DNA from: Lentzea guizhouensis | GTDB taxonomy: Bacteria > Actinomycetota > Actinomycetes > Mycobacteriales > Pseudonocardiaceae | Assembly: GCF_001701025.1 (NCBI RefSeq) | Contig: NZ_CP016793.1 | Span: 7,316,001-7,380,000 of the forward strand | Length of the DNA stretch: 64,000 bases | Reading direction: 5' to 3' | Part shown: one piece after another, positions 38,761 to 54,929 of the stretch | Numbering within the stretch: the first letter of the stretch is position 1 | Layout of the letters: each line of letters starts with the position of its first letter | The notes under the pieces: generated by a model | Databases searched by the model: none | Told to the model about the DNA's origin: nothing | The model's input: only the letters and a program-made list of their open reading frames with translations | Translations under genes and position numbers: made by a program

Positions 38761-39749
38761 GAAGTCCTCCGTTGGACTCGGCCGACGCCCGCGCCCGCGG
38801 TGACGAGCGCTGGTACGTCGGCGGCGTTGTCGAGCGAGTAGGCGTAGTAGGTGCGGGGTTCGACGACGGTGCCGAGGGTCTGCGGGACACCGGAGCCGAC
38901 GTAGACGTTGCCGCGCTCCACCACGCGGCCGGGTCCGCTCTTGTCGTAGCCGGACAGGACCGGGCGGGCGACGTTCTCGAAGTAGTTGGCCTCGACCAGC
39001 ACCCCGGCGTCCTCTGTGGACGCGACGCCGTAGAGGGAGTTGCCGCGGTAGTAGTTGTTGTAGACGTGCACGGGCTCGCCGAACCGCACGCGCGGGTGCC
39101 GCTGGTCGGTGCGGTCGAAGAAGTTGTGGTGGTAGGTGACGCGCAGCTTGCCGCGGTCGGCGGTGTAGGTGTCGGAGTGGCCCAGCAGCGCGGCCTTGCT
39201 GTGGTCGTGGAAGTGGTTCCACGACACCGTGACGTAGTCGGACTGCCGCTTGATGTCGAGCAGGCCGTCGAAGCCGCGCGACAGGTCGCAGTGGTCGATC
39301 CACACGTGGTGCGCGGAGTTGGTGACGCTGATGGAGTCGTCCGAGGCGCCGGTGAAGCGCAGGTTGCGGATGATCACGTTGTTGCCGGGGCGGGTGGTCG
39401 AGCCCAGCTGCAGCCCGCCGCCGGTGATCTCGGCGGTGGAGCCGATCCCGAGGATCGTCTTGTTCGCGACGACGGTCAGCATGTCGTCGACCTCGATGCG
39501 GCCGGACACCGAGATGACGCAGGGCTCCTTGCGCCCGACGTAGTCCCGCAGCGCCTCCGCGGTCGTCACGGTGACGGCTTGGCCGCCCGCGCCGCCGGTC
39601 GTCCCGTTCTGGCCCAGCGCGGTCACGCCCGCGAAGCCGTCGGCCACGGCGTCGGCGGCCAGGTCGGCCCACGCGGCGCGTGACGCGGTGGCGGCGAAGG
39701 CGGTCAGCGCCGCGCCCGCGAGCAGCCGACGTCGGTTGATGGGGCTCAT
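38757..39749 (-). CDS. Secreted pectate lyase, family PL1 (copy B)
   Basis: 330 residues. The signal peptide begins MSPINRRRLLAGAALTAFAA, with a twin-arginine motif, so unlike copies A and C this enzyme probably leaves by the Tat pathway. The mature part repeats GFAGVTALGQNGTTGGAGG, with VWIDHCDLS at the Ca site and RHPRVRFG at the catalytic arginine. It is the middle gene of the operon, separated by 13 bases from copy C and overlapping copy A. Confidence 0.93.
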   Translation of the reverse strand: MSPINRRRLLAGAALTAFAATASRAAWADLAADAVADGFAGVTALGQNGTTGGAGGQAVTVTTAEALRDYVGRKEPCVISVSGRIEVDDMLTVVANKTILGIGSTAEITGGGLQLGSTTRPGNNVIIRNLRFTGASDDSISVTNSAHHVWIDHCDLSRGFDGLLDIKRQSDYVTVSWNHFHDHSKAALLGHSDTYTADRGKLRVTYHHNFFDRTDQRHPRVRFGEPVHVYNNYYRGNSLYGVASTEDAGVLVEANYFENVARPVLSGYDKSGPGRVVERGNVYVGSGVPQTLGTVVEPRTYYAYSLDNAADVPALVTAGAGVGRVQRRTS

Positions 39750-39762
39750 GTGCCCGTCCTCC

Positions 39763-40785
39763 TCAGACTCGGCCGACACCCGCACCGGCGGGCACGACAG
39801 TCGGGACCTCGGCGGCCCGGTGCGGTGTGTAGGCGTAGTAGGTGCGCGGCTCGACGACGGTCCCGCGCACCTCGATCTCGTGGTTGCACTCGACGAGCAC
39901 GTTGTCCCTGGCGACCATCCGGCCGAGATCACCGCTGAAGTCGACCCGGCCGGGGTTGTTGACGCTGAAGAAGTAGTTGCCCTCCAGCACCACGCCCGCG
40001 TTCATCGCCGACGCGACGCCGTAACTGTTGTCCCGGTAGTAGTTGTTGTAGACGTGCACCGACTCGCCGAAGCGGACTCGCGGGTTGCGTTGATCGGAAC
40101 CGTCGAAGTAGTTGTGGTGGTAGGTCACCCTGAGACGCCCCACGTCCTGCGCCGAGTTGTCGTCGTCGTGCCCGAGCAACAACGTCTTGTCGTGGTCGTG
40201 GAACCTGTTCCAGGAAACGGTGATGAAATCGGACCCGCGTTTGATGTCGACGGCGCCGTCGTCACCGTTGGAGAAGTCGTTGTGGTCGATCCAGATGTGG
40301 TGGCTGAACATCTGCACGTTGATCAGGTCATCGGTGGCGCCGGTGATCGACAGGTTCCGGATGATCACGTTGTGCACCGCGTTCGCGGGCGGCGAGACCA
40401 CGTCGTCGTCCACCGGGAGCCCGATGTTCAGCCCGCCGCCGACCAGCCGGGCGTCCGCGCCGAGGCCGACGATCGTCTTGTCGGAAGCGACGTCGTGCAT
40501 CCCGTCGCTGGTGCCGGTGGACAGCGTGATCGTGCCGCGGACCTGCACCACCAGTGGCTCTGGCCGAGCGATGTAGTCCAGGAACTGCGCGGTCGTCGTC
40601 GCCGTGACCACCGCGCCCCCCGCCCCGCCGGTGGTTCCGACCTGGCCCAGCGCGGTCACCCCGGCGAACCCGTCGGCGGCAGGCCCGGCCGCGGTGGCGG
40701 GCGGTGCCGCGATCGTGGCGGCCACGACGGCCACCACCACCGCGACCCGTGCGAGGGCGCGTTCGTACCCGACGTGCGTCCGCAT
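39763..40785 (-). CDS. Secreted pectate lyase, family PL1 (copy C)
   Basis: 340 residues from ATG 40785 after AAAGGA. A long signal peptide (ERALARVAVVVAVVAATIAA) is followed by GFAGVTALGQVGTTGGAGG, the Ca-site motif IWIDHNDFS and RNPRVRFG. It is the first gene of the three-gene pectate-lyase operon. Its own promoter and a palindromic operator are visible upstream. It shares most motifs with copies A and B, so the set arose by tandem duplication. Confidence 0.93.
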   Translation of the reverse strand: MRTHVGYERALARVAVVVAVVAATIAAPPATAAGPAADGFAGVTALGQVGTTGGAGGAVVTATTTAQFLDYIARPEPLVVQVRGTITLSTGTSDGMHDVASDKTIVGLGADARLVGGGLNIGLPVDDDVVSPPANAVHNVIIRNLSITGATDDLINVQMFSHHIWIDHNDFSNGDDGAVDIKRGSDFITVSWNRFHDHDKTLLLGHDDDNSAQDVGRLRVTYHHNYFDGSDQRNPRVRFGESVHVYNNYYRDNSYGVASAMNAGVVLEGNYFFSVNNPGRVDFSGDLGRMVARDNVLVECNHEIEVRGTVVEPRTYYAYTPHRAAEVPTVVPAGAGVGRV

Positions 40786-40852
40786 TTGGGTGGTCCTTTC
40801 GCGAATACGGCCTGCGTGGCGGCGGCGTTGGAAAACCGCTTTCCTGATTCGG

Positions 40853-40882
40853 ACCATAAGACCTGTGTTTCCGGCGTGTCAA
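40853..40882 (-). promoter_or_regulatory. Sigma-70-type promoter of the pectate lyase operon
   Basis: On the minus strand TTGACA (40882-40877) and TATGGT (40858-40853) are spaced by 18 bases, a near-consensus promoter, about 70 bases before the copy C start codon. An imperfect GGAAA...TTTCC repeat (40830-40844) lies near the expected start of transcription. Confidence 0.75.
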
Positions 40883-40890
40883 CGTCGCAT

Positions 40891-40918
40891 CACGTATGCG
40901 AACCGGTTCACATACGTG
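40891..40918. promoter_or_regulatory. 28-base palindromic operator of the pectate lyase operon
   Basis: CACGTATG at 40891-40898 and CATACGTG at 40911-40918 are exact inverted repeats, and the centre GAACCGGTTC (40900-40909) is a perfect palindrome. Only one symmetric base pair mismatches in the whole 28 bases. A central CCGG flanked by AA/TT is typical of LacI-family sites. It lies 8 bases upstream of the -35 hexamer. Confidence 0.72.
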
Positions 40919-41057
40919 GCCTTTTCGATCGCTTTCCGGCGCTGATCGGATGGTCCTTTCGGTCGATCAATTCGAGGTTGTGGAGAATAGCGTCGAATGT
41001 GTTCGACTGGAGCGGGTGACACCTTAGGCCCGGTGATGGCCCTGTTGATCAATGGCA

Positions 41058-41114
41058 AAGCCCTTGGCTTGATCATCCCTCGTGCGACAGAGAGGAAGAT
41101 CAGGCCAAGGGCTT
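41058..41114 (-). terminator. Hairpin downstream of pectate lyase D
   Basis: AAGCCCTTGGC (41058-41068) pairs exactly with GCCAAGGGCTT (41104-41114), and the arms extend inward as TTGATC/GATCAG around a 23-base loop. It starts about 37 bases past the stop of the minus-strand lyase gene. A terminator is the simplest reading, although the long loop is unusual. Confidence 0.6.
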
Positions 41115-41150
41115 CAGTTGATCGGTGTGTTCACCGCACCTCTGGGACTC

Positions 41151-42254
41151 CTAGCAGCTGCCGTCCGACTCCTTCAGGCCCGTGTTGGCGCCCGCAGTGC
41201 GGCTCACGACGTTCGGCACGCAGGCGGCCTGGTCGAGGGTGAAGCTGTAGGGCACGGAGACTGAGGTGGTGGACTTGACGTCGGGACCGGCGGGCTTGTG
41301 ATCGCTGCTCGGCGCGGACCACGTCACGTTGTCGAAGACGTTGCCGCTGACCTGCCAGTAGCCGGCCTCGGTGGTGTAGAAGGTGCCCAGGACGTCACGG
41401 GAGTTCTTGAAGTAGTTGTTGTCCACTTTGGCCTTGGCGCCTGCCCGCGAGTTGATGCCGGACTCGTTCAGGCTCACATAGTGGTTGTTGTACATGTGGG
41501 CGATGCCGCCTCGCAGCAACGGCGCCCGGGAGTCGATGTTCTCGTACAGGTTGTGGTGGTAGGTGATGAACCCGTTCGAGCGGTCGCTCTCGCTGGACCC
41601 GACCAGCCCGCCGCGACCGGAGTTGCGCAGGGTGCTGTAGGACAGGGTCACGTACTGGGTGTTGTTCTTCATGTCGAACAGGCCGTCATAGCCTTCCGGC
41701 TCACCGCCCGACGCCAGGAGGTTGACGTGGTCGACCCAGACGTTGCGGACGTTGCTCTCCATCCCGATGGCGTCGCCGCCGTTCGACGTGGGAGAGCCCG
41801 ACTTCTTGACGTTCCGCACGGTCACGTTCCGGATGATGATGTTGCGGGACTCGCGGATGTGGATGCCCAACTGGTCGAAGACGGCCCCGCCGCCGACACC
41901 GATGATGGTGACGTTGCTGATCCGCTTGAGCTCGATCACGCCGGCCGCGGTCTCACAGCTGTTGCCCGAGACCTTGGCGGTGTTGCCGTGGTTGATCGTG
42001 CCCGACACCTCGATGATGATCGGCGTGCTGCTGCTCGCCCGGCCGCACAGGGCCTGGTGGATCTGAGTTCCCGTGGTGGCCCGGACCGTCGCCCCGCCCT
42101 GGCCGCCGGTGGTCCCGCCGTTCTGGGACGCGTAGCCGGTCGCGACGCCGGCCGCCGCCGACGCCGGTGACACCGCCAGCACCGCGCTGGTCGAAGTCGT
42201 GACGGCCAACGCGGCCACGATCGCGGGGATCCGCCACGCGACTGATCGTTTCAT
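41151..42254 (-). CDS. Secreted pectate lyase, family PL1 (copy D)
   Basis: 367 residues with a Sec signal peptide (AIVAALAVTTSTSAVLAVSP). It is more distant from the other three. The mature start is GYASQNGGTTGGQGG, the Ca-site motif is VWVDHVNLL, the catalytic motif is RAPLLRGG, and four Cys likely form disulfides. The start follows AGGAG. It is monocistronic, with its own promoter and a LacI-type operator over the start site, so it is controlled separately from the A-C operon but probably by the same type of sugar signal. Confidence 0.93.
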   Translation of the reverse strand: MKRSVAWRIPAIVAALAVTTSTSAVLAVSPASAAAGVATGYASQNGGTTGGQGGATVRATTGTQIHQALCGRASSSTPIIIEVSGTINHGNTAKVSGNSCETAAGVIELKRISNVTIIGVGGGAVFDQLGIHIRESRNIIIRNVTVRNVKKSGSPTSNGGDAIGMESNVRNVWVDHVNLLASGGEPEGYDGLFDMKNNTQYVTLSYSTLRNSGRGGLVGSSESDRSNGFITYHHNLYENIDSRAPLLRGGIAHMYNNHYVSLNESGINSRAGAKAKVDNNYFKNSRDVLGTFYTTEAGYWQVSGNVFDNVTWSAPSSDHKPAGPDVKSTTSVSVPYSFTLDQAACVPNVVSRTAGANTGLKESDGSC

Positions 42255-42864: not shown

Positions 42865-42970
42865 TAGTCTCAATTTTGTCGAGAGCATCTCGCACGCGGG
42901 CACTCAAGCTCACGTCGCACTTGGCGAAACCTGAACCGGTCCTCTTCGGGCCGGAGACGGGAGTCCCGGC
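42865..42970 (+). promoter_or_regulatory. Conserved DUF5994 leader, copy 1
   Basis: From the -10 box TAGTCT (42865) to the ATG, this 106-base stretch aligns without gaps to the leader of the DUF5994-like gene at 52496-52601 on the opposite strand, with 84 of 106 bases identical by hand count. A TTGCTG -35 lies 17 bases before the -10. The leader holds a 32-codon frame from TTG (42876) whose TGA overlaps the DUF5994 ATG. It also holds a CCGGTCC...GGGCCGG stem and GGGAG near the start codon. Confidence 0.7.
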
Positions 42971-43504
42971 ATGACGTCGGCTCCTCACCTTTCCATCGCC
43001 CCTCCGGCCGTCACGGCCAGCGAGCAGCCTCGGTGTCCGCTGCGATTGCGGTTGCGGCCGAAGGCGCTCACCACGGGGTATGTCGACGGTGCCTGGTGGC
43101 CGCGTTCCCGGGACCTCGCCGCCGAACTGCCCGCGCTGCTCGCGGTGCTGGCAGTTCGGCTGGGCGAGATCCCGCGGGTGAGCTACAACCTGACCGAGTG
43201 GGACACCGCGCCCAGGCAGATCGCAGTGGACGGCCTCCGGGTGCGGCTCAGCGGGTTCTGGTCCAGGCCGGCGCACACCGTGGACGTCGTCGCGGGGGAC
43301 CGGCGCCGCCTGACGTTGCTCCTCGTCCCGCCGGACACCGAACCTTCCACCGCCCACCACGCCATGATGTGCGCTGCCGAGAGGGAGAACGTCGACGCTG
43401 TCGAGGTCCTGCTCCGCGGCACCACGACGAGTGAGTCCACAGTGGATTCAGCGGGTGCGGGCAGCAGCTGCGTACCCGAACAGACGTTTCAAGGAGCTCG
43501 ATGA
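42971..43504 (+). CDS. DUF5994 family protein
   Basis: 177 residues. The core RLRLRPKALTTGYVDGAWWP, then RVSYNLTEWDTAPRQIAVDG and RRLTLLLVPPDTEPSTA, match DUF5994, a soluble actinobacterial family of unknown role that often lies among stress and ANTAR-type genes. It is the first gene of a three-gene operon (stop overlapping the next ATG) and is preceded by the conserved leader. A shorter relative with the same leader lies at 52202. Confidence 0.82.
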   Translation: MTSAPHLSIAPPAVTASEQPRCPLRLRLRPKALTTGYVDGAWWPRSRDLAAELPALLAVLAVRLGEIPRVSYNLTEWDTAPRQIAVDGLRVRLSGFWSRPAHTVDVVAGDRRRLTLLLVPPDTEPSTAHHAMMCAAERENVDAVEVLLRGTTTSESTVDSAGAGSSCVPEQTFQGAR

Positions 43505-43662
43505 CCACGACGACGCACACGCACACGTCCGCGTATGAGCGCAGGCTCAAGATGGTGCAGGACGTGCTGACCGACCGGACCGAGCTCGCAGGCGAGCCCG
43601 CACGGGATCTCGCGGTGCGCGTGCTGAGCGCGCTGGACCACATACCCGAGCGAGTGCGGTGA
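43501..43662 (+). CDS. Small helical protein (DUF6307-like, 53 aa)
   Basis: 53 residues: a Thr/His-rich start (TTTTHTHTSAYERRLKMVQD), then one amphipathic helical region ending in VRVLSALDHIPERVR. It resembles the short DUF6307-type actinobacterial proteins; this assignment is from memory. Both ends overlap neighbours by four bases, so it is the middle gene of a translationally coupled operon with the DUF5994 and transglutaminase-fold genes. Confidence 0.65.
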   Translation: MTTTTHTHTSAYERRLKMVQDVLTDRTELAGEPARDLAVRVLSALDHIPERVR

Positions 43663-44528
43663 ACTCGCGCCACTACGGCACTGGCGCGGCACAGCTGACG
43701 TGGGGCACCCGACTGCTCCGCGTCGGTTGTGCGTTCACGTATCGAGCCGAGGTTCCCACACCTGCGGTGTTCCTCGTGCGGCCGCTGCGGAGTGCGGACG
43801 TCCGGGTGAGCCAGGAGAACCTGGACGTGAAGCCGGACGTCCCGATGCGGCACCACCTCGACCTGTACGGCAACCGCAACACCCGTGTCGTGCTTCCGGT
43901 CGGTTTGTCCACAGTGCACTTCAGCGCGTGGGTGGACGTGCCGGACAGGGCGGAGGACGTGGACGAGACCGTGCCGGAGACGCCGCCCGACGGACTTCCG
44001 GACGACGTGTTGCTGTACACGTTGCCCAGCCGGTACTGCGTGTCCGACGTGCTGGGCGACGAGGCGTGGTCGCGGTTCGGTGCCCATCCACCCGGCTACG
44101 GCCGGGTGCGGGAGATCTGCCGGCACGTCCACGAGTCGCTGAACCTCGGGTACGGCACGTCCACCGCGTTGTCCACGCCGGCCGGCGTCGACGCCGCGGG
44201 TTTCGGGTCGGACCGCGACTTCGCGCACCTGGCGATCTCCTTCTGCCGCGCGCTCAACATTCCCGCTCGGTACGTCGTCGGCTACCTGCCGGACCTGGAC
44301 GTGCCGCCCGGTGACGCGGTGATGGACTTCGCGGCGTGGGTGGAGGTCTGGCTGGGCGACCGCTGGTGGACCTTCGACCCGCGCAACAACGAGCTGCGCA
44401 AGGGACGCGTTGTCATCGGCAGGGGTCGCGATGCCGCCGACGTCGCCGTGGTGACCACGTTCGGCGGTCCGAGGTTGGAGTCGGTGGTCGTGCAGGCGGA
44501 AGAGGACCTGGCCCCGTCGTGGCGCTGA
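43659..44528 (+). CDS. Transglutaminase-fold protein lacking the catalytic Cys and His
   Basis: 289 residues with an N-terminal beta domain and a C-terminal transglutaminase core. The core is recognisable as GSDRDFAHLAISFCRALNIP ARYVVGYL and DFAAWVEVWLGDRWWTFDPR. In active members the first motif reads xVCxDFAH and the second DFHAWxEV. Here Asp185 replaces the Cys and Ala225 the His, while Asp240 remains. It is therefore unlikely to be a cysteine protease or cross-linker and may be a binding protein. The GTG overlaps the preceding stop. Confidence 0.8.
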   Translation: MNSRHYGTGAAQLTWGTRLLRVGCAFTYRAEVPTPAVFLVRPLRSADVRVSQENLDVKPDVPMRHHLDLYGNRNTRVVLPVGLSTVHFSAWVDVPDRAEDVDETVPETPPDGLPDDVLLYTLPSRYCVSDVLGDEAWSRFGAHPPGYGRVREICRHVHESLNLGYGTSTALSTPAGVDAAGFGSDRDFAHLAISFCRALNIPARYVVGYLPDLDVPPGDAVMDFAAWVEVWLGDRWWTFDPRNNELRKGRVVIGRGRDAADVAVVTTFGGPRLESVVVQAEEDLAPSWR

Positions 44529-44554
44529 GCGGGAGGTGCCCGCCGAGGAGTAGG

Positions 44555-44845
44555 ATGGAGCTACCGAGGGTACGTCGTGCAGCAGCGCTCAAGCTGGTGC
44601 CGCCTTGGGCGCATCAGGAAGCCCGGTCGTGTTCGGCTGGAGGCGGGAGCGCCGAGATGAACTCGGATCAGCTCTGCACCACTGCGTCATCGCCCACCGC
44701 ATCATCGCCCACCGCGTCTTTCCCCGCCTCACGCGGCGAAAGACTGACCGACGGCCCTCATTTCGCCGGGAGCTGGCGGCCGTTGTCGCCCGGCCCGGCC
44801 GTCATCGGGCCGATGCCCGGCTCACCGATCAGGCGCAAGCGCTGA
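44555..44845 (+). CDS. Doubtful 96-aa reading frame with leader-like start
   Basis: Starts MELPRVRRAAALKLVPPWAH. Its first 32 codons line up with the frame in the conserved DUF5994 leaders (shared L..R..R..ALKL....A..E). The following part contains a short direct repeat (CATCGCCCACCGC twice, 44692-44720) and is Ser/Pro-rich, without a known fold. There is no ribosome binding site. It may be a degenerate third copy of the leader rather than a true gene. Confidence 0.3.
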   Translation: MELPRVRRAAALKLVPPWAHQEARSCSAGGGSAEMNSDQLCTTASSPTASSPTASFPASRGERLTDGPHFAGSWRPLSPGPAVIGPMPGSPIRRKR

Positions 44846-44889
44846 CGGTCTCGTTCTTCCCTTCCCGCAACGACCATCGGAGTGTCCGC

Positions 44890-45033
44890 ATGCCCGAGTC
44901 ACGAACCGCCCCCGACGACAAAGCGAGCTGTGCGGTGTGTCCTCACGCATGGCATGAACACGACCCGCTCGGCGAGCGGTACTGCACGGCGACCACGGCG
45001 TCGGCGCTCACGCGAGGATGCATCTGCGCATGA
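44890..45033 (+). CDS. Small Cys-rich RGCVC-like protein (47 aa)
   Basis: 47 residues with the pattern CAVCPHAWHEHDPLGERYC and the end TRGCICA. Five Cys and three His in such a short chain suggest a zinc-bound knuckle. Short actinobacterial proteins ending RGCVC show the same spacing; the name is from memory and the function is unknown. Its TGA overlaps the ATG of the acetyltransferase gene, so the two are coupled. Confidence 0.65.
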   Translation: MPESRTAPDDKASCAVCPHAWHEHDPLGERYCTATTASALTRGCICA

Positions 45034-45608
45034 CCGTGATGACGAACGTGTTGGCCACCAACCGGTTGACGCTGCGCGATTGGCGTGCCGAGGACGCCGC
45101 GGCCGCGCTGGAGGTCTACGGCCACGCCGAAGTCACCCGCTGGCTCAGCCCGGAGATGGACCAGGTCCCGGACGCGGCGGCCATGAGGTTGTTGCTGCAG
45201 CAGTGGATCGCTGAGAGCGCGCGCGTTCCGGCTCCGGCCGGCCGCTGGGCGGTCGAGCGCAACGCCGACGGTCAGGTGATCGGCGGCGCGCACCTGCTCC
45301 CGCTGCCACCCGGCCGGGAGGACCTGGAGGTCGGCTGGCAGCTGAGGCCTGACGTGTGGGGCCACGGCTACGCCGCCGAGGCCACCCACGCCCTCGCCGG
45401 GTGGGCGTTCGGCCATGACGTGTACGAGGTGTTCGCCGTCGTCCGGCCGGGCGACACGCGCGCCTCGTCGGCCGTCCGGAAGAACGGGATGCACTGGGTC
45501 GGTGAAACCGGGAAGTACTTCGGCCTCGACCTGCAGGTGTTCCGGCTCCGCGTGGCGGACCTCGACGCGAACGCGGCTTCGTCGGCCGGGCGACCCGGCC
45601 GCGACTGA
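45030..45608 (+). CDS. GNAT family N-acetyltransferase
   Basis: 192 residues in the RimJ/RimL-like branch: TNRLTLRDWRAEDAAAALEV at the start, the GWQLRPDVWGHGYAAEATHA acetyl-CoA loop, and VRKNGMHWVGETGKYFGLDL at the end. It acetylates an amine on a protein or small molecule; the substrate is unknown. ATG 45030, overlapping the upstream stop, was preferred over the in-frame ATG at 45018, which would sit inside the previous gene. Confidence 0.86.
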   Translation: MTVMTNVLATNRLTLRDWRAEDAAAALEVYGHAEVTRWLSPEMDQVPDAAAMRLLLQQWIAESARVPAPAGRWAVERNADGQVIGGAHLLPLPPGREDLEVGWQLRPDVWGHGYAAEATHALAGWAFGHDVYEVFAVVRPGDTRASSAVRKNGMHWVGETGKYFGLDLQVFRLRVADLDANAASSAGRPGRD

Positions 45609-45707
45609 CCGGAACGGCGGCAGGCTTTCCGCGTCGGTGCGTTGAGCGGTTCGACGACGGGAAGTGGCCACCCGGTCTGCCGAGCGCGATGAGCCCGGTG
45701 TACTGGT

Positions 45708-45737
45708 CCTGCTCACGACCGTTGGGTCGTGAGCAGG
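45708..45737. terminator. Perfect 13-bp hairpin with GTTG loop
   Basis: CCTGCTCACGACC (45708-45720) is exactly complementary to 45725-45737 with a 4-base loop. It lies between the convergent acetyltransferase and GAF-ANTAR units and is symmetrical, so it can terminate both. Confidence 0.82.
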
Positions 45738-45896
45738 TCTGCGAGTCGCTGCACCCTGCTGGCCTCGTCGACGGTCCTGGAGGCACCGATCGTGAGATGG
45801 CGGGCGGTCTCCTCGCGTGCCTTCAGCCATTCGGACAGCGTGGGCTTGAGGACAGGGCCGCCTTGTTCTCCCCGACGCGGTTGGTGGGCGGGTCAC
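45713..45896 (-). pseudogene. Possible small gene after the ANTAR gene, with a probable frameshift
   Basis: GTG 45896 overlaps the ANTAR stop by four bases and reads VTRPPTASGRTRRP. One base further on (near 45853) another frame continues LKPTLSEWLKAREETARHLT and ends VQRLADLLTTQRS at TGA (45715). The second part has the composition of a real helical protein. Removing one T joins both into about 60 residues. The family is not recognised, and the stop lies inside the terminator hairpin. Confidence 0.4.
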
Positions 45897-46660
45897 ACGT
45901 CAGCAGGACGAGGCCGCAGCGCGAGCAGGTCCTCCGGGCGCAGCTCTCCGACGACGAGTTCACGAGCTACTTCGGCCAGGCGACGACGACCGTTGCGGGC
46001 GTAGTTCCGCAGTACGTGGAACGCCTGTTCCATCTCCAGATTTCCGGCGAACGCCAGCACACCTTTGGCCTGTTCGATGACGACCCGGCTGTTCAACGCC
46101 GTCTGCAGCTGCTCTGTGACGACCTCGCTGCGCCGGATGGCACGTTCCTGCAGGATTCCGATCGTCGCCGTGTCCGCCAGGGCCCGCACGAGCAGGAGGT
46201 CCTCGTCGCTGAGCAGACCGGTTTCACGGCGGAACAGGTTCAACGTGCCGATGGTCTCGCGCCGCAGTCTCATCGGCACCGCGTGCACGGAGGCGAAACC
46301 CTCCGCGATGGCGAGTGGCGCGAACCGCGGCCAGCGCTGGATCTCCGTCGACAGGTCCGCGACCAGCACCGCCTCACCACTGTGCACGCAGTCCAGGCAC
46401 GGGCCTTCGCTCGCCTGGAGCTGGAACAGTTCGAGCATCTGCGTCTGATCCGACGAGTAAGCCACCACTCTCAGACCACCGTGCTGGTCGGACAGCATCA
46501 ACCCGGCCGCCGTCGCGTCCAGCAACTGGACGCAGTGCTCGACCAGCCCGTGCAGCACGTCCACCACGTCGTAGTCGTCCACGAGCGTGTCCGCCAACTC
46601 GACGAACGCGTGGAGCAACCGGGATTCCCGCTCTGCCCTGGACGGTGCGCTACCGCTCAT
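45893..46660 (-). CDS. GAF-ANTAR antiterminator regulator (1)
   Basis: 255 residues. GAF sensor domain (about 20-170, with LLHAFVELADTLVDDYDVVD and ASEGPCLDCVHSGEAVLVAD) and C-terminal ANTAR RNA-binding domain (TALNSRVVIEQAKGVLAFAG to LLALRPRP). ANTAR proteins bind paired RNA hairpins and prevent termination. The GAF Cys pair (CLDC) may sense a ligand or redox state. The start was placed at MSGSAPSRAERES. A relic of a close paralogue lies at 54913-55237. Confidence 0.88.
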   Translation of the reverse strand: MSGSAPSRAERESRLLHAFVELADTLVDDYDVVDVLHGLVEHCVQLLDATAAGLMLSDQHGGLRVVAYSSDQTQMLELFQLQASEGPCLDCVHSGEAVLVADLSTEIQRWPRFAPLAIAEGFASVHAVPMRLRRETIGTLNLFRRETGLLSDEDLLLVRALADTATIGILQERAIRRSEVVTEQLQTALNSRVVIEQAKGVLAFAGNLEMEQAFHVLRNYARNGRRRLAEVARELVVGELRPEDLLALRPRPADV

Positions 46661-46734
46661 CACCAGCTCCTGTTTCCTCTTCTTCCGACGGTAGTGCTGC
46701 CAAGGCCGGGTCGCCATCCACGTCTCGCACGCGT

Positions 46735-47466
46735 TCACCTGCCCAGTTCCAGCGGGGACAGCCGGCGGCTGACGATGTCCTCGGCCACCTCGTCCAGCGA
46801 CCTGTCGACGACGAAGGCGTAGCCCCGCAGCCTGGACAGTGCCTCCTCCGCGGAAACGCCCAAGGCGGCGAGGACCATTCCGGTCGCTTGGTGCACCTGC
46901 TCCCGCCCTGGTGACAGCACCCCGCGCAAGCCGTCAGTGCCGTTCGCCTCACCCAGAAGCACCCCGAGCAGCACCGCGGTCACGACGTCGACCACCTCCA
47001 GCGCCACGGCGAGCTCCTCGGCCGACAACCACCCGGGCCGCCTCCGGTAGAGGTCGATCGCGCCGATGCCGATCGCGCCCGCCTGCAGGGGAAACGCGAA
47101 GATCGCGCCGACGGGCAGCGGGTTGACGGTCGCCGCGAACATCGGCCACTCCTGGACCGATGCCTGAGGCAGGTCGGGAACCAGCACGGGCCTGCGGGAC
47201 GCGAACGCCTCGAAGCACGGGCCCTCACCCAAGCTGAACTGGATGTCCTCGATCCGTGCCGCGATCTTGTCGCTGGCGTACAACGTCTCCCGCTCCCGCG
47301 GACCGCTCATCGCCGAGACGGAGGCGCCGTCCACCGGCAGTACGTCCACGCACGCGCGAATGACCCGCGCCAGCGCGTCGAGTTCGTTCTCGTTGTCGTG
47401 AAGCGCGGCTCTCAGCGTTGCTCGCGCGTCTCTCAGGGACAAATGGGGTCGATCAGGTTCGTGCAC
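46735..47466 (-). CDS. GAF-ANTAR antiterminator regulator (2)
   Basis: 243 residues starting at GTG. GAF domain with DGASVSAMSGPRERETLYAS and LGEGPCFEAFASRRPVLVPD, and ANTAR domain from VHQATGMVLAALGVSAEEAL to DIVSRRLSPLEL. It lies 74 bases upstream of the first ANTAR gene in the same direction and may be co-transcribed. The start has only a weak ribosome binding site, and a shorter start is possible. Confidence 0.85.
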   Translation of the reverse strand: MHEPDRPHLSLRDARATLRAALHDNENELDALARVIRACVDVLPVDGASVSAMSGPRERETLYASDKIAARIEDIQFSLGEGPCFEAFASRRPVLVPDLPQASVQEWPMFAATVNPLPVGAIFAFPLQAGAIGIGAIDLYRRRPGWLSAEELAVALEVVDVVTAVLLGVLLGEANGTDGLRGVLSPGREQVHQATGMVLAALGVSAEEALSRLRGYAFVVDRSLDEVAEDIVSRRLSPLELGR

Positions 47467-47758
47467 CTTTGGTCACACCGCCGAACAACGGCGGGTTCAT
47501 CGACATCTGGCACCGGATTCCTCCACCACGTGGAATGCTTCCAGCCGCTCCTGGAACGTGGCGAGGTCAAGGCCATCGTCTTGCGTGATCGCATCAGGAT
47601 CAACACGACCAGCCTACGGTGTGCTTGCGCCGGCTGCCGTTCAGGCTCCACCGGCGGATCCGGCAACCACCGCATCCGTCGACTTCGCCGACCGGCAACT
47701 GCTGACCGCTCTAGAAGCCGACGGCATCGTCGGCCGGCGTCACCGCACTGCCAGGAGG
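47467..47758. other. Intergenic region with one uncertain coding fragment
   Basis: About 290 bases. On the minus strand near 47505-47600 a short frame reads GLDLATFQERLEAFHVVEES and stops, which looks like the end of a helical protein, but no start codon or upstream part fits. I see no other structure. Confidence 0.35.
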
Positions 47759-47986
47759 TCAGCGGGGGAGGGTGTGCGGGTCGCGGCCACGAGGGTAGAC
47801 CTCGTGCTCGCTGATCGTGCCGTCCCGGTCGCGGACGATGTGGTCCACCGCGTGCGCGATGGCCATCTCGCGGCCGTTCGTGCGGGCGTCGTCCTTGGTC
47901 AGGTGCGAGCTGGAGGCGAGGTCGTTCCCCTCCACCTTGTTCTTCCACCGGCCGCCTTCGAAGTAGGTCTCAACATCTCCACGCAT
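47759..47986 (-). CDS. DUF2188 domain protein
   Basis: 75 residues: KNKVEGNDLASSSHLTKDDA, then EMAIAHAVDHIVRDRDGTIS and EHEVYPRGRDPH. This matches DUF2188, short proteins made of one beta-hairpin repeat that often accompany stress and hibernation genes. The N-terminus was set at MRGDVETYFEGGRW; longer starts add low-complexity sequence. Confidence 0.72.
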   Translation of the reverse strand: MRGDVETYFEGGRWKNKVEGNDLASSSHLTKDDARTNGREMAIAHAVDHIVRDRDGTISEHEVYPRGRDPHTLPR

Positions 47987-48158
47987 GGTGTCGCTCCCGT
48001 CGGGTCGTCCGGATCGAATACCCCGGACTCCGACCGGCACACCACCTTGAGTCCGCGCGTTCGGAGTCTGACCAGGCGACACGCCGTCGCCGAAGTCCTC
48101 CGAGCGGCCGTCACCGTGAGGCTGTTCCACCTGCGGTCCGCCGCACACGGGACCGGCC

Positions 48159-48563
48159 TCAGTCCTGGGAACGCCGAGGCTGATCGTGCTCAGACAGTGC
48201 GGGGACGGACCTCAGCGCGCGGTTGCTGCGCGGTTCGGTCCGCGTCTTGGCCTCGTCGACCTGCCGGACCAGCTCGTTGCGGACCTCGTTGAGCGCGGCC
48301 GGCAGATCCGCCTCGGACGAGGTGGCGACGAGGTGCAGACGGGGAGTGCGGTTGATCCAGCACTCCAAGGTGACGTGTTGCTCGACACCGCCGCGGTCCT
48401 TCACGCTGATCTCGAGGTCGACCTGGTCGTCGCGGAACGAGCGCAGTCGCGAGCCGAGTGCGGCCAGGCGTTCCACGACCCAGCCGCGTTCGTTCGCGAG
48501 GAACCCGGTGGCGAGGTTCAGCCGGTTGGTGATCACCGCGGCGTCCTCTGACACTTTGCTCAT
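48159..48563 (-). CDS. HPF/RaiA-like ribosome-associated protein
   Basis: 134 residues with the beta-alpha-beta-beta pattern of the ribosome hibernation S30AE domain: ERLAALGSRLRSFRDDQVDL, then DRGGVEQHVTLECWINRTPR and LPAALNEVRNELVRQVDEAK. It lacks the C-terminal dimerisation domain of long HPF. It would bind stalled or stationary-phase ribosomes. The DUF2188 and ANTAR neighbours fit a general stress region. Confidence 0.75.
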   Translation of the reverse strand: MSKVSEDAAVITNRLNLATGFLANERGWVVERLAALGSRLRSFRDDQVDLEISVKDRGGVEQHVTLECWINRTPRLHLVATSSEADLPAALNEVRNELVRQVDEAKTRTEPRSNRALRSVPALSEHDQPRRSQD

Positions 48564-48651
48564 CTTCTTCTCACTTGTCCTTTGTAGAGTGGTGAACCGA
48601 GATCGCGCTACGAGGTGAGTGCGCTCGGCGAACGCATCGGCCTGCTGCGGC

Positions 48652-50121
48652 TCACTTTCCCTCGGTCAGGTCCGCTATCAGGCCGCGCAGAGACACGGTG
48701 GCCAGCCCGATGGAGGCGTCGCTCGCACCGTAGGGAATCACCAGCGTGTCCCCGTGCAGCAAGGCGCCGCAGGAGTAGACGACGTTGGGCACGTAGCCGT
48801 CGCGTTCGCCGGCGGAGGGCAGCAGCACCGGTTCGGGCAGGGATGCCAGCACCCGTTCGGGGTGGTCGAGGTCGAGCAGGATCGCGCCCATCGTGTAGAC
48901 CCGCATGGGGCCGACGCCGTGGGTCAGCACGAGCCAGCCTTCGGGGGTCTCGATGGGTGAACCGCAGTTGCCGACCTGGACGAGGTCCCAGTCCCTGCCG
49001 GGAACCTGCACGGACTGGGGCCCGTTCCAGGTCCTGATGTCGTCGGACGTGACGACGGCGGAGCTCTCGCCGTCCCCGCGCGTCAACGCGGCGAACCGGC
49101 CTCCGATCTTCCTGGGGAACAGGGCCATGCCTTTGTTGCGTGCGGCCGAACCGGTCGTCTGTGTGACGTAAAAGGTGCGGAAGTCATTGGTCTGCAACAG
49201 TTGCGGCGCGACGTCGACACCGTCATAGGCTGTGTAGGTGGCGTAGTAGGTCTGCTCGCCGTCATCGTCGGTGAAGCGCACGAACCTGGCGTCCTCCATG
49301 CCGTGGCGTTCGGACGGGCCGGTGGGCCAGAGCACCCGTCCGCTGAGGACGGTGTCTTCGGGGAACTCGGAGGTGTAGTTGCACGCGGCGATCCATCGGA
49401 CCAGCTCCACAGTCCGGTGTGCCTCTTGGCGGGCGACCAGGCTCGGGTGCAGGTCGGCCAGCACTCGATCCAGTTCGGCGCGGGTGAACCGCGCGGGCAG
49501 CCACCGGTTCAGCACGGCGGAGACCTCGTCGTCGTGGCCGAACTCCGCGAGTTTGCCCTGGAAAAGACTCTTCTCGTACGTCGACTCGCGGTGCAGACCC
49601 GTGGTCACGACGGTCGGCGGTGCGTCGACGCTGAGCGCGGCATCGGGACCGATCACACCCGTGCGGAAGCCGATGGAGGACAGATGGCCCTCACCGATGC
49701 CCCGCACGCTGAGCGCGAATCTCAACTGCCCCGCTGCCATCCCGCTCTGATCGGGGTGCGCGACCATGGAGGGGTTGCACAACGCGGCGCCTTCGACGGA
49801 GTACTCGTGGGTGAAGTACGCGCCGATCAGCAGTCTGCGGGACTCGGACAGTTCGACATCCGGGGTCAACCGGTGGCTGACGCTCGCGAAGTGGTCGGAG
49901 AAGGTCGCCTGAACGTCCCGATGCCGGCCCGCGAACATGCGGATCGTGCGATCCAGCGCTGCGCACACGGTCGCCTCGTCCAGTGCCATCACCCGCCGGA
50001 TCACGGCCGCTGACCGGGACTCGTGTTCTGGCCGTTCCTCTCCTGGCACGAACAACTTGGTGATGACGCGGCTCGGGTCCGGCCGCAGCCGCAGCGAGGA
50101 GCGCGTGACGTCGGCGTTCAT
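48652..50121 (-). CDS. GH130 family beta-mannoside phosphorylase/hydrolase
   Basis: 489 residues with a five-bladed propeller typical of GH130: HGMEDARFVRFTDDDGEQTY, then VGNCGSPIETPEGWLVLTHG and DGYVPNVVYSCGALLHGDTL. The family acts on beta-mannosides. It is the last gene of a three-gene operon in which consecutive genes overlap by four bases. Glycosyltransferase, (alpha/alpha)6 protein and GH130 is a recurrent actinobacterial set, probably making or remodelling a mannoside. Confidence 0.85.
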   Translation of the reverse strand: MNADVTRSSLRLRPDPSRVITKLFVPGEERPEHESRSAAVIRRVMALDEATVCAALDRTIRMFAGRHRDVQATFSDHFASVSHRLTPDVELSESRRLLIGAYFTHEYSVEGAALCNPSMVAHPDQSGMAAGQLRFALSVRGIGEGHLSSIGFRTGVIGPDAALSVDAPPTVVTTGLHRESTYEKSLFQGKLAEFGHDDEVSAVLNRWLPARFTRAELDRVLADLHPSLVARQEAHRTVELVRWIAACNYTSEFPEDTVLSGRVLWPTGPSERHGMEDARFVRFTDDDGEQTYYATYTAYDGVDVAPQLLQTNDFRTFYVTQTTGSAARNKGMALFPRKIGGRFAALTRGDGESSAVVTSDDIRTWNGPQSVQVPGRDWDLVQVGNCGSPIETPEGWLVLTHGVGPMRVYTMGAILLDLDHPERVLASLPEPVLLPSAGERDGYVPNVVYSCGALLHGDTLVIPYGASDASIGLATVSLRGLIADLTEGK

Positions 50122-51128
50122 CCGGTGCCCCCCAGCGAAGTGCGGCCGTGCTGCAGAGTGGAGATCAGCGCCAGCGTCGACTCGGCGCCCTGGTTGCGGT
50201 TGACACCGTCGCGCACCAGTCCGTCGTAGCCGCCCCCGGTCTCCTTGTCGCGCATGGGCACGCCGAGGTCGTTGTCACCGTCGAACCACGCGACCGTGCG
50301 GCGAAGACCGTTGAGCCACTTCAGGTTGCCTGTGGCCTGGTAGGCGCGAGCACAGGCGTCGGCGAGCGCGGCGACCTCGACGGGTTGCTGGTCGAACGCC
50401 GGGCGGGGTTCTCCGACGTGCCAGCCACCTGCCGGGGTGGGCGAGAGGTGGGCTTCGCGGGACTCGACGGTCAGCAGCCAGTCCAGCAGCCGCAGACCGT
50501 CGTCGCGGACCTGGGGGGCGTCGAGGAGCTGGCCCGCGGCGATCAGCGCTTCGGGCAGCGCGGCGTTGGCGTAGAAGAGCCGGTGTTCAGGCCACGGCCA
50601 GTCCGGTGTCTCGCCCGGTTCCCCGACGTACGAGGAGATGTCACCGAGCAGCTTGGCCGCGAGGGCGTGACCGGGATCGACACCCAGCACCTCGGCGGCA
50701 CCGAGCGCGGCGAAGGCCATCGAGCGCACCGACGGTGGCCGGTGATGGGCGCTCTTCTCGAAGCAGTCCAGCGCAGCCGTGCGGATCCAGGCCGCCGGGC
50801 CACGTGCGGCCGCGGTGCCCAGCCCCCACAACGCGCGTCCCCACCAGTCACCCAGCCCCGGCTCGTCCTGCCAGCGGCGGTCGAAGCCGAGCCGGTTGTG
50901 GAACCGCCCGTCGTCGGCCTGTGCGTGCGCGGTGAAGGCGAGATAGCGCTCCACCAGAACGACCAGATCGGTGGGCAGCTCCGGTTCGCGGGACAGGACG
51001 ACCAGGCCGCGGGCGACGTCGTCGAGGCAGTACCCGTGTTCGCGACGGGGGAGCGGACCGTCGGCGTGCTCGTGCAGACCCGTGTCGTCGCTGAGCCGGA
51101 TCAGGTGGGCGAAACTCGGGCCGGTCAC
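50118..51128 (-). CDS. (alpha/alpha)6-barrel glycosidase-like protein
   Basis: 336 residues of repeating helical hairpins (EHGYCLDDVARGLVVLSREP, FDRRWQDEPGLGDWWGRALW, SVRSMAFAALGAAEVLGVDP). This is the usual middle protein of the GH130 operon, commonly labelled a glycosyltransferase although the fold resembles an (alpha/alpha)6 glycosidase. It overlaps both neighbours by four bases. Substrate unknown; a mannose-containing oligosaccharide is inferred from context. Confidence 0.75.
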   Translation of the reverse strand: MTGPSFAHLIRLSDDTGLHEHADGPLPRREHGYCLDDVARGLVVLSREPELPTDLVVLVERYLAFTAHAQADDGRFHNRLGFDRRWQDEPGLGDWWGRALWGLGTAAARGPAAWIRTAALDCFEKSAHHRPPSVRSMAFAALGAAEVLGVDPGHALAAKLLGDISSYVGEPGETPDWPWPEHRLFYANAALPEALIAAGQLLDAPQVRDDGLRLLDWLLTVESREAHLSPTPAGGWHVGEPRPAFDQQPVEVAALADACARAYQATGNLKWLNGLRRTVAWFDGDNDLGVPMRDKETGGGYDGLVRDGVNRNQGAESTLALISTLQHGRTSLGGTG

Positions 51129-52140
51129 GTGGTCACGACGACTCGGCCGGCGAGGAGGCGCTCAGCCAGGCGGCGATACCGGTTGGCGACGGCGGACCAG
51201 TTCAGCGTCGGGGCGAGACTGGCCGAGCGGTCGCTCATCCCGGCCACGAGCCCCGGTTCGGTCAGCACCCGCCGCAACGCCGCGGCGATGGCGTCCGGAT
51301 CGCGGTGGGGCACCAGCAGCCCGGCCCCGTCGGCCAGCAGTTCGACGGCGTGCGGGAACTCGGTCGCGACCACCGGTTTGCCGGCGGCCAGGGCCTCGAT
51401 CAGCACGCCGGAAGTGACCTGCTCCGACGAGTCGTAGGGCAGCAGCACGACATCGGCTTGGCCGACGAGCTCCGCCAGCGCCTCGATCTCGCGGTAGGCC
51501 GGGTCGAACTCGACCAGGTCCGCGACACCGAGCGCGGCCGCGCGGTTGCGCAGGTTGCCGCGGTAGAGCTCGCCCTCGTGCGCCAGCACCTTGGGATGGG
51601 TCTGGCCCGCCACGAGATAACGGGGCTTCAGATCGCGCAGCGCGCCCAACGCGGAGATACCCCACTCGATGCCCTTGCCGCGCCCCAGCAGACCCCAGGT
51701 GAGGATCATCGGCCGGTCGGCGGACGGCATGAGGGCGGGAGGGTTGACGGGGAGCGCGCCGTGCGGGATGACGACGACCTCATCGGGCCGCTCGACGGCG
51801 TAGCCGTCCACGAGCCGCTGCCGCGCGGCCTCGGACATGGTCACCACGGCGTCGGCATGGCCGACGACCTCTTCGAGCACCTGCCGTTGGCCAGGCGTGG
51901 GCGTGGTGAGCACGGTGTGCAGGACGATGATCACCGGGACCCGCAGCCGGGCCAGCACGCCGAACACGGGGTCCCCGCGATCGCGACCGGCTCGTGATCC
52001 GGCTCCGTGAGAACGCGGACCACCTGGCCCGTGCTTCCCGGCGTCACCGCGGTCAGATGGCGCAGGAGCGACGCGGTGAACGTGGCGAGACCACACTGCG
52101 TGGGCGGATATGTGCTCAGAAAACCGTAAGTGCGGGCCAC
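51125..52140 (-). pseudogene. GT4-type glycosyltransferase with an internal deletion and frame change
   Basis: The N-terminus (VARTYGFLSTYPPTQCGLAT, GTG 52140) and the C-terminal two thirds (VPVIIVLHTVLTTPTPGQRQ, TWGLLGRGKGIEWGISALGA, VLIEALAAGKPVVATEFPHA) are typical of the glycosyltransferase in this operon. Between about 51990 and 51965 the frame changes and roughly 55-65 residues seen in relatives, including the HEYGIYGG-type loop, are missing. The join falls at a repeated GCGATCGCG-like stretch. It is either a real deletion that kills the enzyme or an assembly collapse. Confidence 0.65.
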
Positions 52141-52201
52141 GAAGAGGGCCTTTCGGGTCGGCGGAAGTGGTCGCTCCACTGTGGAGGGTCTGAGCGAATG
52201 A

Positions 52202-52495
52202 TCAACGCGACCGGTGCGGGAGGGGACCGCGCAAACTCAGCACGTGCACCTCTGCCTGGTCGGTGCACACGGGGACGCTGCGGTGACGTCCGTCCAGCGC
52301 GGTCAGGTCGATGGTGTGCACAGGCCGTGAGACGTGCCCGTCGAGGCGGATCCGCCGCCAGCGTTCGACGAGGTGGTGGTAGCCCAGCCACAGGACGTCG
52401 TCCAGTCCGGCGAGCACTGCGCGTGGCGAACGCCGAGGCCGCTCGGAGGCGAAGCCGGACGGTGGCGCCACGGGAAGGTGGGATGCCGACATCAT
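52202..52495 (-). CDS. Short DUF5994-like protein with conserved leader
   Basis: 97 residues. The middle and end (RAVLAGLDDVLWLGYHHLVE, then HVSRPVHTIDLTALDGRHRS VPVCTD) line up with the second half of the DUF5994 protein at 42971, but the N-terminal RLKP...GYVDGAWWP block is absent. It is therefore a shortened or decayed paralogue. Two ATG codons are adjacent at the start. It carries the same 106-base leader, which argues that its control has been kept. Confidence 0.6.
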   Translation of the reverse strand: MMSASHLPVAPPSGFASERPRRSPRAVLAGLDDVLWLGYHHLVERWRRIRLDGHVSRPVHTIDLTALDGRHRSVPVCTDQAEVHVLSLRGPLPHRSR

Positions 52496-52601
52496 GCCGG
52501 GCCTCCCGTTCCTGGCCGGAAAATGGCCGTTTCAGTTGTCGCCGAGTACGACGTGAGCTTGACTGCCCACGTGCGAGGTGTTCCCGGCAAAATCAACACT
52601 A
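52496..52601 (-). promoter_or_regulatory. Conserved DUF5994 leader, copy 2
   Basis: On the minus strand the -10 box TAGTGT (52601-52596) is exactly 106 bases before the ATG, as in copy 1, and the alignment needs no gap. Shared blocks include CTCGCACG, GTCAAGCTCACGTCG/ACTCAAGCTCACGTCG, CTCGGCGA/TTGGCGA and the 3' end ACGGGAGxCCCGGCATGA. The 32-codon frame from TTG (52590) again ends with a TGA overlapping the start codon. Confidence 0.7.
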
Positions 52602-54061: not shown

Positions 54062-54200
54062 CATGGTTCCCGGGCCGGATCTGCGCGCTCGACCGCTTTC
54101 ACCACCTGGGTCGGTTCGTGTGGTCCGACGGGCGATCGGTGGCGGTGGTGTGTGAAGAGCCAGGTCCCGTCCGAGATGACAATGGCGAGGAGTGACCGAC

Positions 54201-54929
54201 GTGGGCACGAATCGGCACCTCGACGTACTCATGGGGATCAACGAGATCGCCAGGGCCGACCAGAAGCCCGTCGACGTCCGCCACGTCTGCCTTGCCTGCC
54301 GGATCGGCCTGAACGCGGTCGGAGTGGGGATCTACCTCGCCGGTACCGCGCAACCGGTCGAGGTGGTCGGAACCACGGGCGACGAGATGGCCGAGCTGCA
54401 GGTGACGTTGGGTGAGGGGCCCGTGCCTGAGGCTTTGCGGCAGAACCGGCCGGTGTTCGTGTCCGACCTGACAGGCGGGTTGAGTGCGAGGCGGTGGCCC
54501 GTGTTCGCTCCTGCCGCGGTCGCCGCAGGAGTGGCAGCGGTCTTCGTGATCCCCTTGACGCTCGGGGCGATCGCGTTGGGCGCCTTGGAGATCTGCCGGG
54601 ACGTCGACGGCCCGTTGTCAGCGGACGAGCTCGCGGACGCGCTGCTGTTCGCGGACGCGGTGACAATGCTGTTGCTCGGCCGATCTCCGATGTCGGCGGC
54701 ACTGGACGTCGCCGACCTGCCGCATTCCGGGCCGGATGGCCGCTGGGCGGTGGTGCATCAGGCCACCGGGATGGCGTCGGTGCAGCTGGGCGCCGATCTC
54801 GGTGAGGCGTTTCTGAGGCTGCGCGCGCACGCGTATCTCACCGGTGTCCGTCTGTCGGAGGTGGCGGCCGACGTGGTCGCGCTCAGACTGAGGTTCACCC
54901 CGGACACCGACCATGAGAAGCAGACGTGA
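54201..54929 (+). CDS. GAF-ANTAR antiterminator regulator (3)
   Basis: 242 residues from GTG 54201, nine bases after GAGGA; GTG 54192 is too close to the ribosome binding site. GAF domain with NAVGVGIYLAGTAQPVEVVG and LGEGPVPEALRQNRPVFVSD, and ANTAR domain VHQATGMASVQLGADLGEAF to ADVVALRLRF. It is closest in layout to regulator (2). The next frame, a broken GAF relic, overlaps its 3' end by 17 bases. Confidence 0.85.
   Translation: MGTNRHLDVLMGINEIARADQKPVDVRHVCLACRIGLNAVGVGIYLAGTAQPVEVVGTTGDEMAELQVTLGEGPVPEALRQNRPVFVSDLTGGLSARRWPVFAPAAVAAGVAAVFVIPLTLGAIALGALEICRDVDGPLSADELADALLFADAVTMLLLGRSPMSAALDVADLPHSGPDGRWAVVHQATGMASVQLGADLGEAFLRLRAHAYLTGVRLSEVAADVVALRLRFTPDTDHEKQT

Follow-up and report, generated by a model that had tools for sequence, protein, structure and literature searches.

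Leader copies in the window

The window analysed here comprises 64,000 nucleotides of Lentzea guizhouensis DNA (NZ_CP016793.1, positions 7,316,001 to 7,380,000). It contains two closely similar gene leaders, at 42865-42970 on the plus strand and 52601-52496 on the minus strand, which are 106 bases long each and align without gaps, with 84 of the 106 bases identical, as given in a preliminary description of this DNA. The similarity ends near position -120; beyond this, the DNA upstream of the two copies is unrelated. Both downstream genes had been called DUF5994-type. The gene at 42971 on the plus strand indeed matches PF19457 (Table 1), but the 97-codon open reading frame (ORF) at 52495 has no Pfam match. 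The coding sequences had been described as diverging quickly; they reach chance level after about 25 codons, but the first 75 coding bases are still identical at 53 positions.

A DNA search of the same genome revealed a third copy at C1:9226583, upstream of a DUF5994 frame that is interrupted by a stop. A fourth copy, which has diverged further, lies inside the window at 44561-44660; covariance model R2 detected it, whereas the 22 matches of the DNA search do not include it. Judged by comparison of sequences, the leader pair looks like a several-copy, folded RNA leader of about 100 bases that recurs in several groups of Actinobacteria. Its recurrence in front of the same few gene families would make it a shared control element, rather than a chance duplication or a hidden peptide. 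A recent duplication or recombination that carried a neutral leader along with its genes might explain why the three copies mentioned first share the leader and the N-terminal codons. The covariation and the recurrence across families described below make this explanation scarcely credible, and the identities are unequal across the gene, where the preliminary description had expected equal coding and upstream identity from a recent duplication.

Comparison set and covariance models

A protein scan for DUF5994 yielded 78 loci from Lentzea, other Pseudonocardiaceae and many Mycobacterium sensu lato, at most of which the leader is about equally long and shares recognisable blocks. Eighty leaders were collected, 70 were left after removal of near-identical ones and 63 were aligned. 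Locus L071 was excluded because of an internal deletion, and L094, L097, L120, L127, L130 and L131 as divergent or lacking the element; L098 has no usable start. Two covariance models were used, R2 and R3, the latter built from 131 copies. Their E-values are rough owing to a short calibration, and searches over 40 genomes were run with stricter filters, at which weak matches are lost. Mononucleotide shuffles served as controls for the -10 position, the hexaloop motif and the peptide frame.

Structure of the leader RNA

The element is an RNA of 99 positions, extending from just past the -10 box to the start codon, with three helices (P1, P2 and P3) and a conserved internal loop. P1 encloses the P2 hairpin across this asymmetric loop; P3, the Shine-Dalgarno sequence and the start codon follow. 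RNAalifold found these helices unaided in the 63 leaders, with 15 of its 18 pairs showing two-sided changes. In the full model of 24 pairs, 89.9% of the cells are paired; column shuffles give 77.9%, and sliding the partners gives no more than 44.1%. Two-sided changes occur in 18 of the 24 pairs and amount to 246 such cells, compared with a shuffle mean of 102.

Because related sequences inflate covariation counts, shuffling was also confined to clades (21 Lentzea, 10 other Pseudonocardiaceae and 32 mycobacterial leaders). The observed paired fraction of 0.899 then compares with 0.863, and none of 1000 shuffles was as high overall; for the three groups taken separately, in the order given, 0, 1 and 0 of 1000 reached the observed value. 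The same holds for P1, P2 and P3 singly, each with none of 500 within-clade shuffles at the observed level. In the internal loop, the A is kept in 60, the U in 57, the C in 61 and the G in 62 of the 63 leaders, and the facing C in all of them. Alignment of 131 copies to R2 gives 91.1% pairing and 20 pairs with two-sided changes, this alignment being fitted to the model. In an unfitted, sequence-only alignment of 30 copies from a second genus, the same P1 and P2 fold; two-sided changes affect five pairs, of which four belong to P1 and P2 and one to a hairpin of the Shine-Dalgarno region. On this comparative evidence, a secondary structure is maintained by compensatory change.

Table 1. Positions of the leader RNA copies, their parts and neighbouring genes in the window.
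Feature	Position	Strand	Evidence or remark
-10 box TAGTCT of RNA copy 1	42865..42870	+	TANNNT position rule
RNA copy 1, entire element through ATGA	42876..42974	+	84.2 bits with R2
P1 helix, copy 1	42878-42886 paired with 42917-42925	+	two-sided changes in 6/9 pairs
P2 helix, inside P1, copy 1	42894-42901 paired with 42908-42915	+	two-sided changes in 7/8 pairs
Internal loop A..UCG	42887-42893, opposite invariant C42916	+	C kept in 63/63
P3 hairpin	42936-42941 paired with 42949-42954	+	two-sided changes in 5/6 pairs
Shine-Dalgarno-like GGGAG, just downstream of P3	42959-42963	+	sequence
DUF5994 gene after copy 1	42971..43504	+	PF19457, 134.4 bits
-10-like TAGGAT of the extra copy	44551..44556	+	sequence; position rule
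Extra RNA copy	44561..44660	+	57 bits with R2, E 3.8e-11 in own genome; 72 bits with R3
62-aa ORF (MNSDQLCTT type), start inside extra copy	44657..44845	+	also follows this RNA in other genomes
RGCVC family gene downstream of extra copy	44890..45033	+	NF038206, 73.5 bits
Two GAF-ANTAR genes beside RNA copies	45893-46738, 46735-47466	-	candidate RNA-binding proteins
S30AE/HPF-like gene	48159..48563	-	weak match, under curated cut-offs
GH130	48652-50121	-	apparently transcribed behind copy 2
Protein with no Pfam match	50118-51128	-	apparently transcribed behind copy 2
Glycosyltransferase	51125-52096	-	apparently transcribed behind copy 2
97-aa short DUF5994 relative after copy 2	52202..52495	-	ORF; no Pfam match
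RNA copy 2, entire element through ATGA	52492..52590	-	85.8 bits with R2
-10 box TAGTGT of RNA copy 2	52596..52601	-	sequence; position rule
Third GAF-ANTAR-like gene, near copy 2	54192..54929	+	ANTAR 27.1 bits (cut-off 27.3); 29.7 bits in a second search

The upstream reading frame

The preliminary description had left undecided whether an RNA, a short peptide or a bound protein is conserved here. Comparison favours the RNA and disfavours the peptide, while a protein bound to the RNA may still be involved. The putative peptide would be encoded by a 32-codon frame whose TTG lies five bases after the -10 box, correctly placed in that description, and would be coupled to the start codon of DUF5994. 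The first seven substitutions after the TTG do fall in one codon phase, but the eighth breaks it, and the protein-level selection read from them is not upheld. In 57 of the 63 leaders the stop codon of this frame overlaps the ATG; this overlap follows from the start site reading ATGA. In 35 leaders the frame is open, a larger share than the 36% seen in shuffled sequences, but the other two frames are open in 24 and 32 (shuffles, 36-39%). A start-like codon is present among its first six codons in only 19 leaders, a stop interrupts it in the third copy of this genome, and leader lengths are spread over all classes modulo 3 (30, 17 and 16). The broken frame, the rare starts, the modulo-3 lengths and an unrelated frame that is open almost as often speak against a conserved translatable upstream frame, and a coupled leader peptide is thus very improbable.

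Position behind a promoter-like site

A TANNNT motif starts 9-16 nucleotides upstream of the model start in 124 of the 131 copies, against a mean of 6.5 and a maximum of 14 in 200 shuffles. From this fixed distance we infer that the RNA forms the 5' end of the transcript. On sequence evidence, the element is bounded by a promoter-like site on one side and by the start codon of non-homologous genes on the other. In the Lentzea leaders (for example L071 and L072), an imperfect inverted repeat, TTCRG..CTGAA, was noted by eye just upstream of the -10 box; it is perhaps an operator common to these promoters.

Occurrence and genes behind the RNA

R2 has five matches at E <1 in the genome of L. guizhouensis, four of them strong. 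A covariance-model search, as suggested in the preliminary description, found the element in 98 of 200 Pseudonocardiaceae genomes (R2, E 1e-4), and 45 of 121 genomes of the second genus, by inference Streptomyces, carry it at the same threshold. In a sample of the phylum, 22 of 296 genomes have R2 matches at E 0.01; matches below 1e-5 come from three families, and those in the E range from about 1e-4 to 0.008 probably reflect chance. With R3, 33 of 296 genomes in a sample of the class match at E 1e-4, including two further families. Loci L275 and L276 have four and three RNA copies, respectively, some divergent, within about 10 kb, which suggests gene islands with the leader on each unit.

It had been considered that DUF5994 homologues elsewhere might lack the element; most carry it. 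At loci chosen by DUF5994 score alone, the RNA adjoins 27 of 29 genes, 26 with at least 41 bits and one with 23.9, some of these loci being from the same or very close genomes. It also adjoins 75 of the 78 DUF5994 genes of the scan, a count that is partly circular because 60 of the 78 loci also fed the model; the match at L094 has only 28.3 bits, and L098, L127 and L130 gave none. Among the 200 Pseudonocardiaceae genomes, 84 have both the RNA and DUF5994 and 89 have neither.

RNA copies not followed by DUF5994 stand in front of other genes. RGCVC (NF038206) occurs in 82 of the 200 Pseudonocardiaceae genomes, at least 63 of which also have the RNA. Of the 96 RGCVC genes listed, at least 41 have a listed RNA copy no more than 2 kb away, where chance would give roughly 0.2% for a distance of 5 kb; RNA linkage counts in these genomes are lower bounds, 150 RNA matches being listed. 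RGCVC genes follow copies lacking DUF5994 in L224, L225 and L233. Elsewhere the RNA lies immediately before a weakly S30AE/HPF-like gene (L222), homologous to the window gene at 48159-48563, and it also precedes an AlaDH/PNT-type gene (L289), DUF6292 (L249), desaturase genes (L228 and L239, named by eye) and, in mycobacteria, WS/DGAT genes (L108, L104 and L128, named by eye). Entire frames from stop to stop served as seeds for desaturase, AlaDH, DUF6292 and WS/DGAT, making offsets and some weak labels rough. The 133 copies surveyed for downstream genes were picked with emphasis on those lacking a DUF5994 gene, and their category counts are not frequencies.

Short ORFs resembling the one at 52495 follow the same leader in L235, L239, L244 and L296, which argues that it is a short DUF5994 relative and not a fresh wreck. 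In the window, this ORF, the glycosyltransferase, the protein lacking a Pfam match and GH130 (48652-52495, minus strand) share one direction behind copy 2 and are possibly one operon; the order of short ORF, glycosyltransferase and homologue of the 50118-51128 protein is retained in L239. Behind the extra copy (44561-45605), the order of RNA, 62-residue ORF, RGCVC and GNAT gene is repeated in L058, L062, L073 and L241. A run of similar secreted ORFs, pectate-lyase-like by eye, occupies 37768-42254 on the minus strand.

GAF-ANTAR genes near the RNA

Each of the four strong RNA copies of the L. guizhouensis genome is less than 5 kb away from an ANTAR domain; of the 29 ANTAR domains in this genome, 8 lie within 7 kb of an RNA copy (block-rotation P 0.0015). 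Around the third copy, ANTAR domains form a cluster (L005 1-860; C1:9230850-9232777 in the genome). GAF-ANTAR-like ORFs, collected with an iterated profile that may also take GAF-only proteins, are present at 15 of 35 DUF5994 loci in Pseudonocardiaceae and at 14 of 42 in mycobacteria, each locus taken with up to 5 kb of flanking DNA; L091, a Lentzea, was counted with the Pseudonocardiaceae and L098 in neither group. They are found at none of 27 second-genus loci, with flanks of about 1.5 kb or less, and at 12 of 77 mixed loci; the linkage is therefore not general.

ANTAR-target RNAs are defined by a dual hairpin with A1/G4 hexaloops and a linker of 2-25 nucleotides (PMC8164766). Like the present RNA, they lie near the ribosome-binding site in Actinobacteria, and ANTAR genes stand near some copies here; unlike them, it has no dual A1/G4 hexaloops, and its P1 surrounds P2 across an internal loop, with P3 coming next. 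The dual hairpin occurs in none of the 131 copies, where 100 shuffles give a mean of 2.24 and a maximum of 7. The RNA might be a GAF-ANTAR target through a non-classical motif, with a dimer on P2 and P3 or at the P1/P2 loop blocking or opening the start site. Proximity in the own genome and the ORFs at Pseudonocardiaceae and mycobacterial loci speak for this, but with the defining hairpin missing and few or no such ORFs at the mixed and second-genus loci we think it unlikely, if still worth considering. What the genomic proximity suggests is a candidate factor, not membership of the ANTAR-target family.

Relation to other leader RNAs

Translation-level riboswitches and autoregulatory leaders of the ribosomal protein type are structured, end at the Shine-Dalgarno sequence and are common to several genes. 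The present leader shares these traits, but it matches no Rfam family and no conserved helix that hides the Shine-Dalgarno sequence was found in it. In a riboswitch, the P1/P2 internal loop would be the aptamer for a small molecule of growth arrest or lipid metabolism. The layout is aptamer-like, with the best-kept unpaired bases clustered between two helices, and one RNA stands before diverse genes; for an aptamer, however, few loop positions are strongly kept, no conserved expression platform was found and the gene set points to no common metabolite, so that a riboswitch appears rather improbable.

RNA thermometers have a hairpin close to the Shine-Dalgarno sequence, as does this leader. From 15 to 45 °C, its predicted Shine-Dalgarno accessibility hardly shifts, from 0.44 to 0.48 in the 63 leaders and from 0.40 to 0.42 in the 30 second-genus copies, and this prediction speaks against a thermometer.

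Hairpins at the 5' end can stabilise an mRNA, and one of this sort has reportedly been described for the gyrase mRNA of M. smegmatis. P1 begins at the presumed transcript start, where an end stem could shield the mRNA from nucleases with no specific partner. Such a stabiliser would need neither nearly invariant internal-loop bases nor a conserved P3, nor would it call for a recurrent, narrow gene set, and we regard it as improbable.

At the gathering score, Rfam has no match in the window, in which three copies are present, and with permissive settings it has none on eight copies (copy 1 and seven others). No mention of DUF5994 or RGCVC was found in the literature searched, preprints and subscription papers being outside its scope. 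In the portion of a 2010 list of 104 candidate RNAs that we consulted, the candidates from Actinobacteria are Actino-pnp, Collinsella-1, mraW, msiK, pheA and ykkC-III, all with an Rfam number in that list except pheA. The leader is thus apparently an undescribed family, unless it has already appeared in a preprint or subscription paper.

Proposed function

We consider it fairly probable that the leader belongs to a new family of structured 5' leader RNAs that act in cis, are recognised by a trans-acting factor and coordinate a small set of genes. Transcription would begin a few bases past the fixed -10 box, so that the transcript opens with the P1/P2 domain and runs through P3 to the Shine-Dalgarno sequence and start codon; a separate expression platform would have no place in it. 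The missing gap between P3 and the ribosome-binding site, together with the absence of a U run after P3 in the 63 aligned leaders, makes control of translation start or mRNA stability likelier than termination. The factor, most likely a protein, may recognise the P1/P2 internal loop (A, UCG and the facing invariant C) and would alter ribosome loading at the adjacent start site or the lifetime of the mRNA. The coordinated set would comprise DUF5994, RGCVC, DUF6292, AlaDH-like, S30AE-like, fatty-acid desaturase and WS/DGAT genes.

Several observations weigh against this proposal. P3 was not recovered in the unfitted alignment of 30 copies, in which a competing hairpin of the Shine-Dalgarno region was predicted instead, in the second genus only. 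No conserved helix hiding the Shine-Dalgarno sequence was found, a candidate hairpin showing no covariation, and the predicted accessibility of this sequence in the 63 leaders is middling and scattered (mean 0.46 at 37 °C). Among the 27 matches adjacent to independently chosen DUF5994 genes, three are shortened (62-64 bases) and one is the weak match of 23.9 bits. Of 97 DUF5994-positive Pseudonocardiaceae genomes, 13 lack an RNA match at E 1e-4, and DUF5994 is missing from 14 of the 98 RNA-positive ones; 27 of the 133 surveyed copies have none of ten seed families within 2 kb downstream.

More speculatively, and with low confidence, the leader may be an undescribed RNA class that marks a growth-arrest regulon of Actinomycetes, with a partner that has a new mode of recognition, either a divergent GAF-ANTAR protein that binds independently of the classical motif or a new riboswitch ligand. 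The growth-arrest set in this joint reading would consist of the ribosome-hibernation-like factor, triacylglycerol/wax synthase, desaturases, an alanine-dehydrogenase-like (AlaDH-like) enzyme, the small Cys-rich RGCVC proteins and DUF5994.

The RNA leader provides a first handle on the DUF5994 and RGCVC genes and puts them in the company of lipid, ribosome-hibernation-like and GAF-ANTAR genes. With covariance models and particular bases to mutate at hand, what was an unexplained pair of leaders becomes a testable, putative post-transcriptional regulon of Pseudonocardiaceae, mycobacteria and further Actinomycetes.

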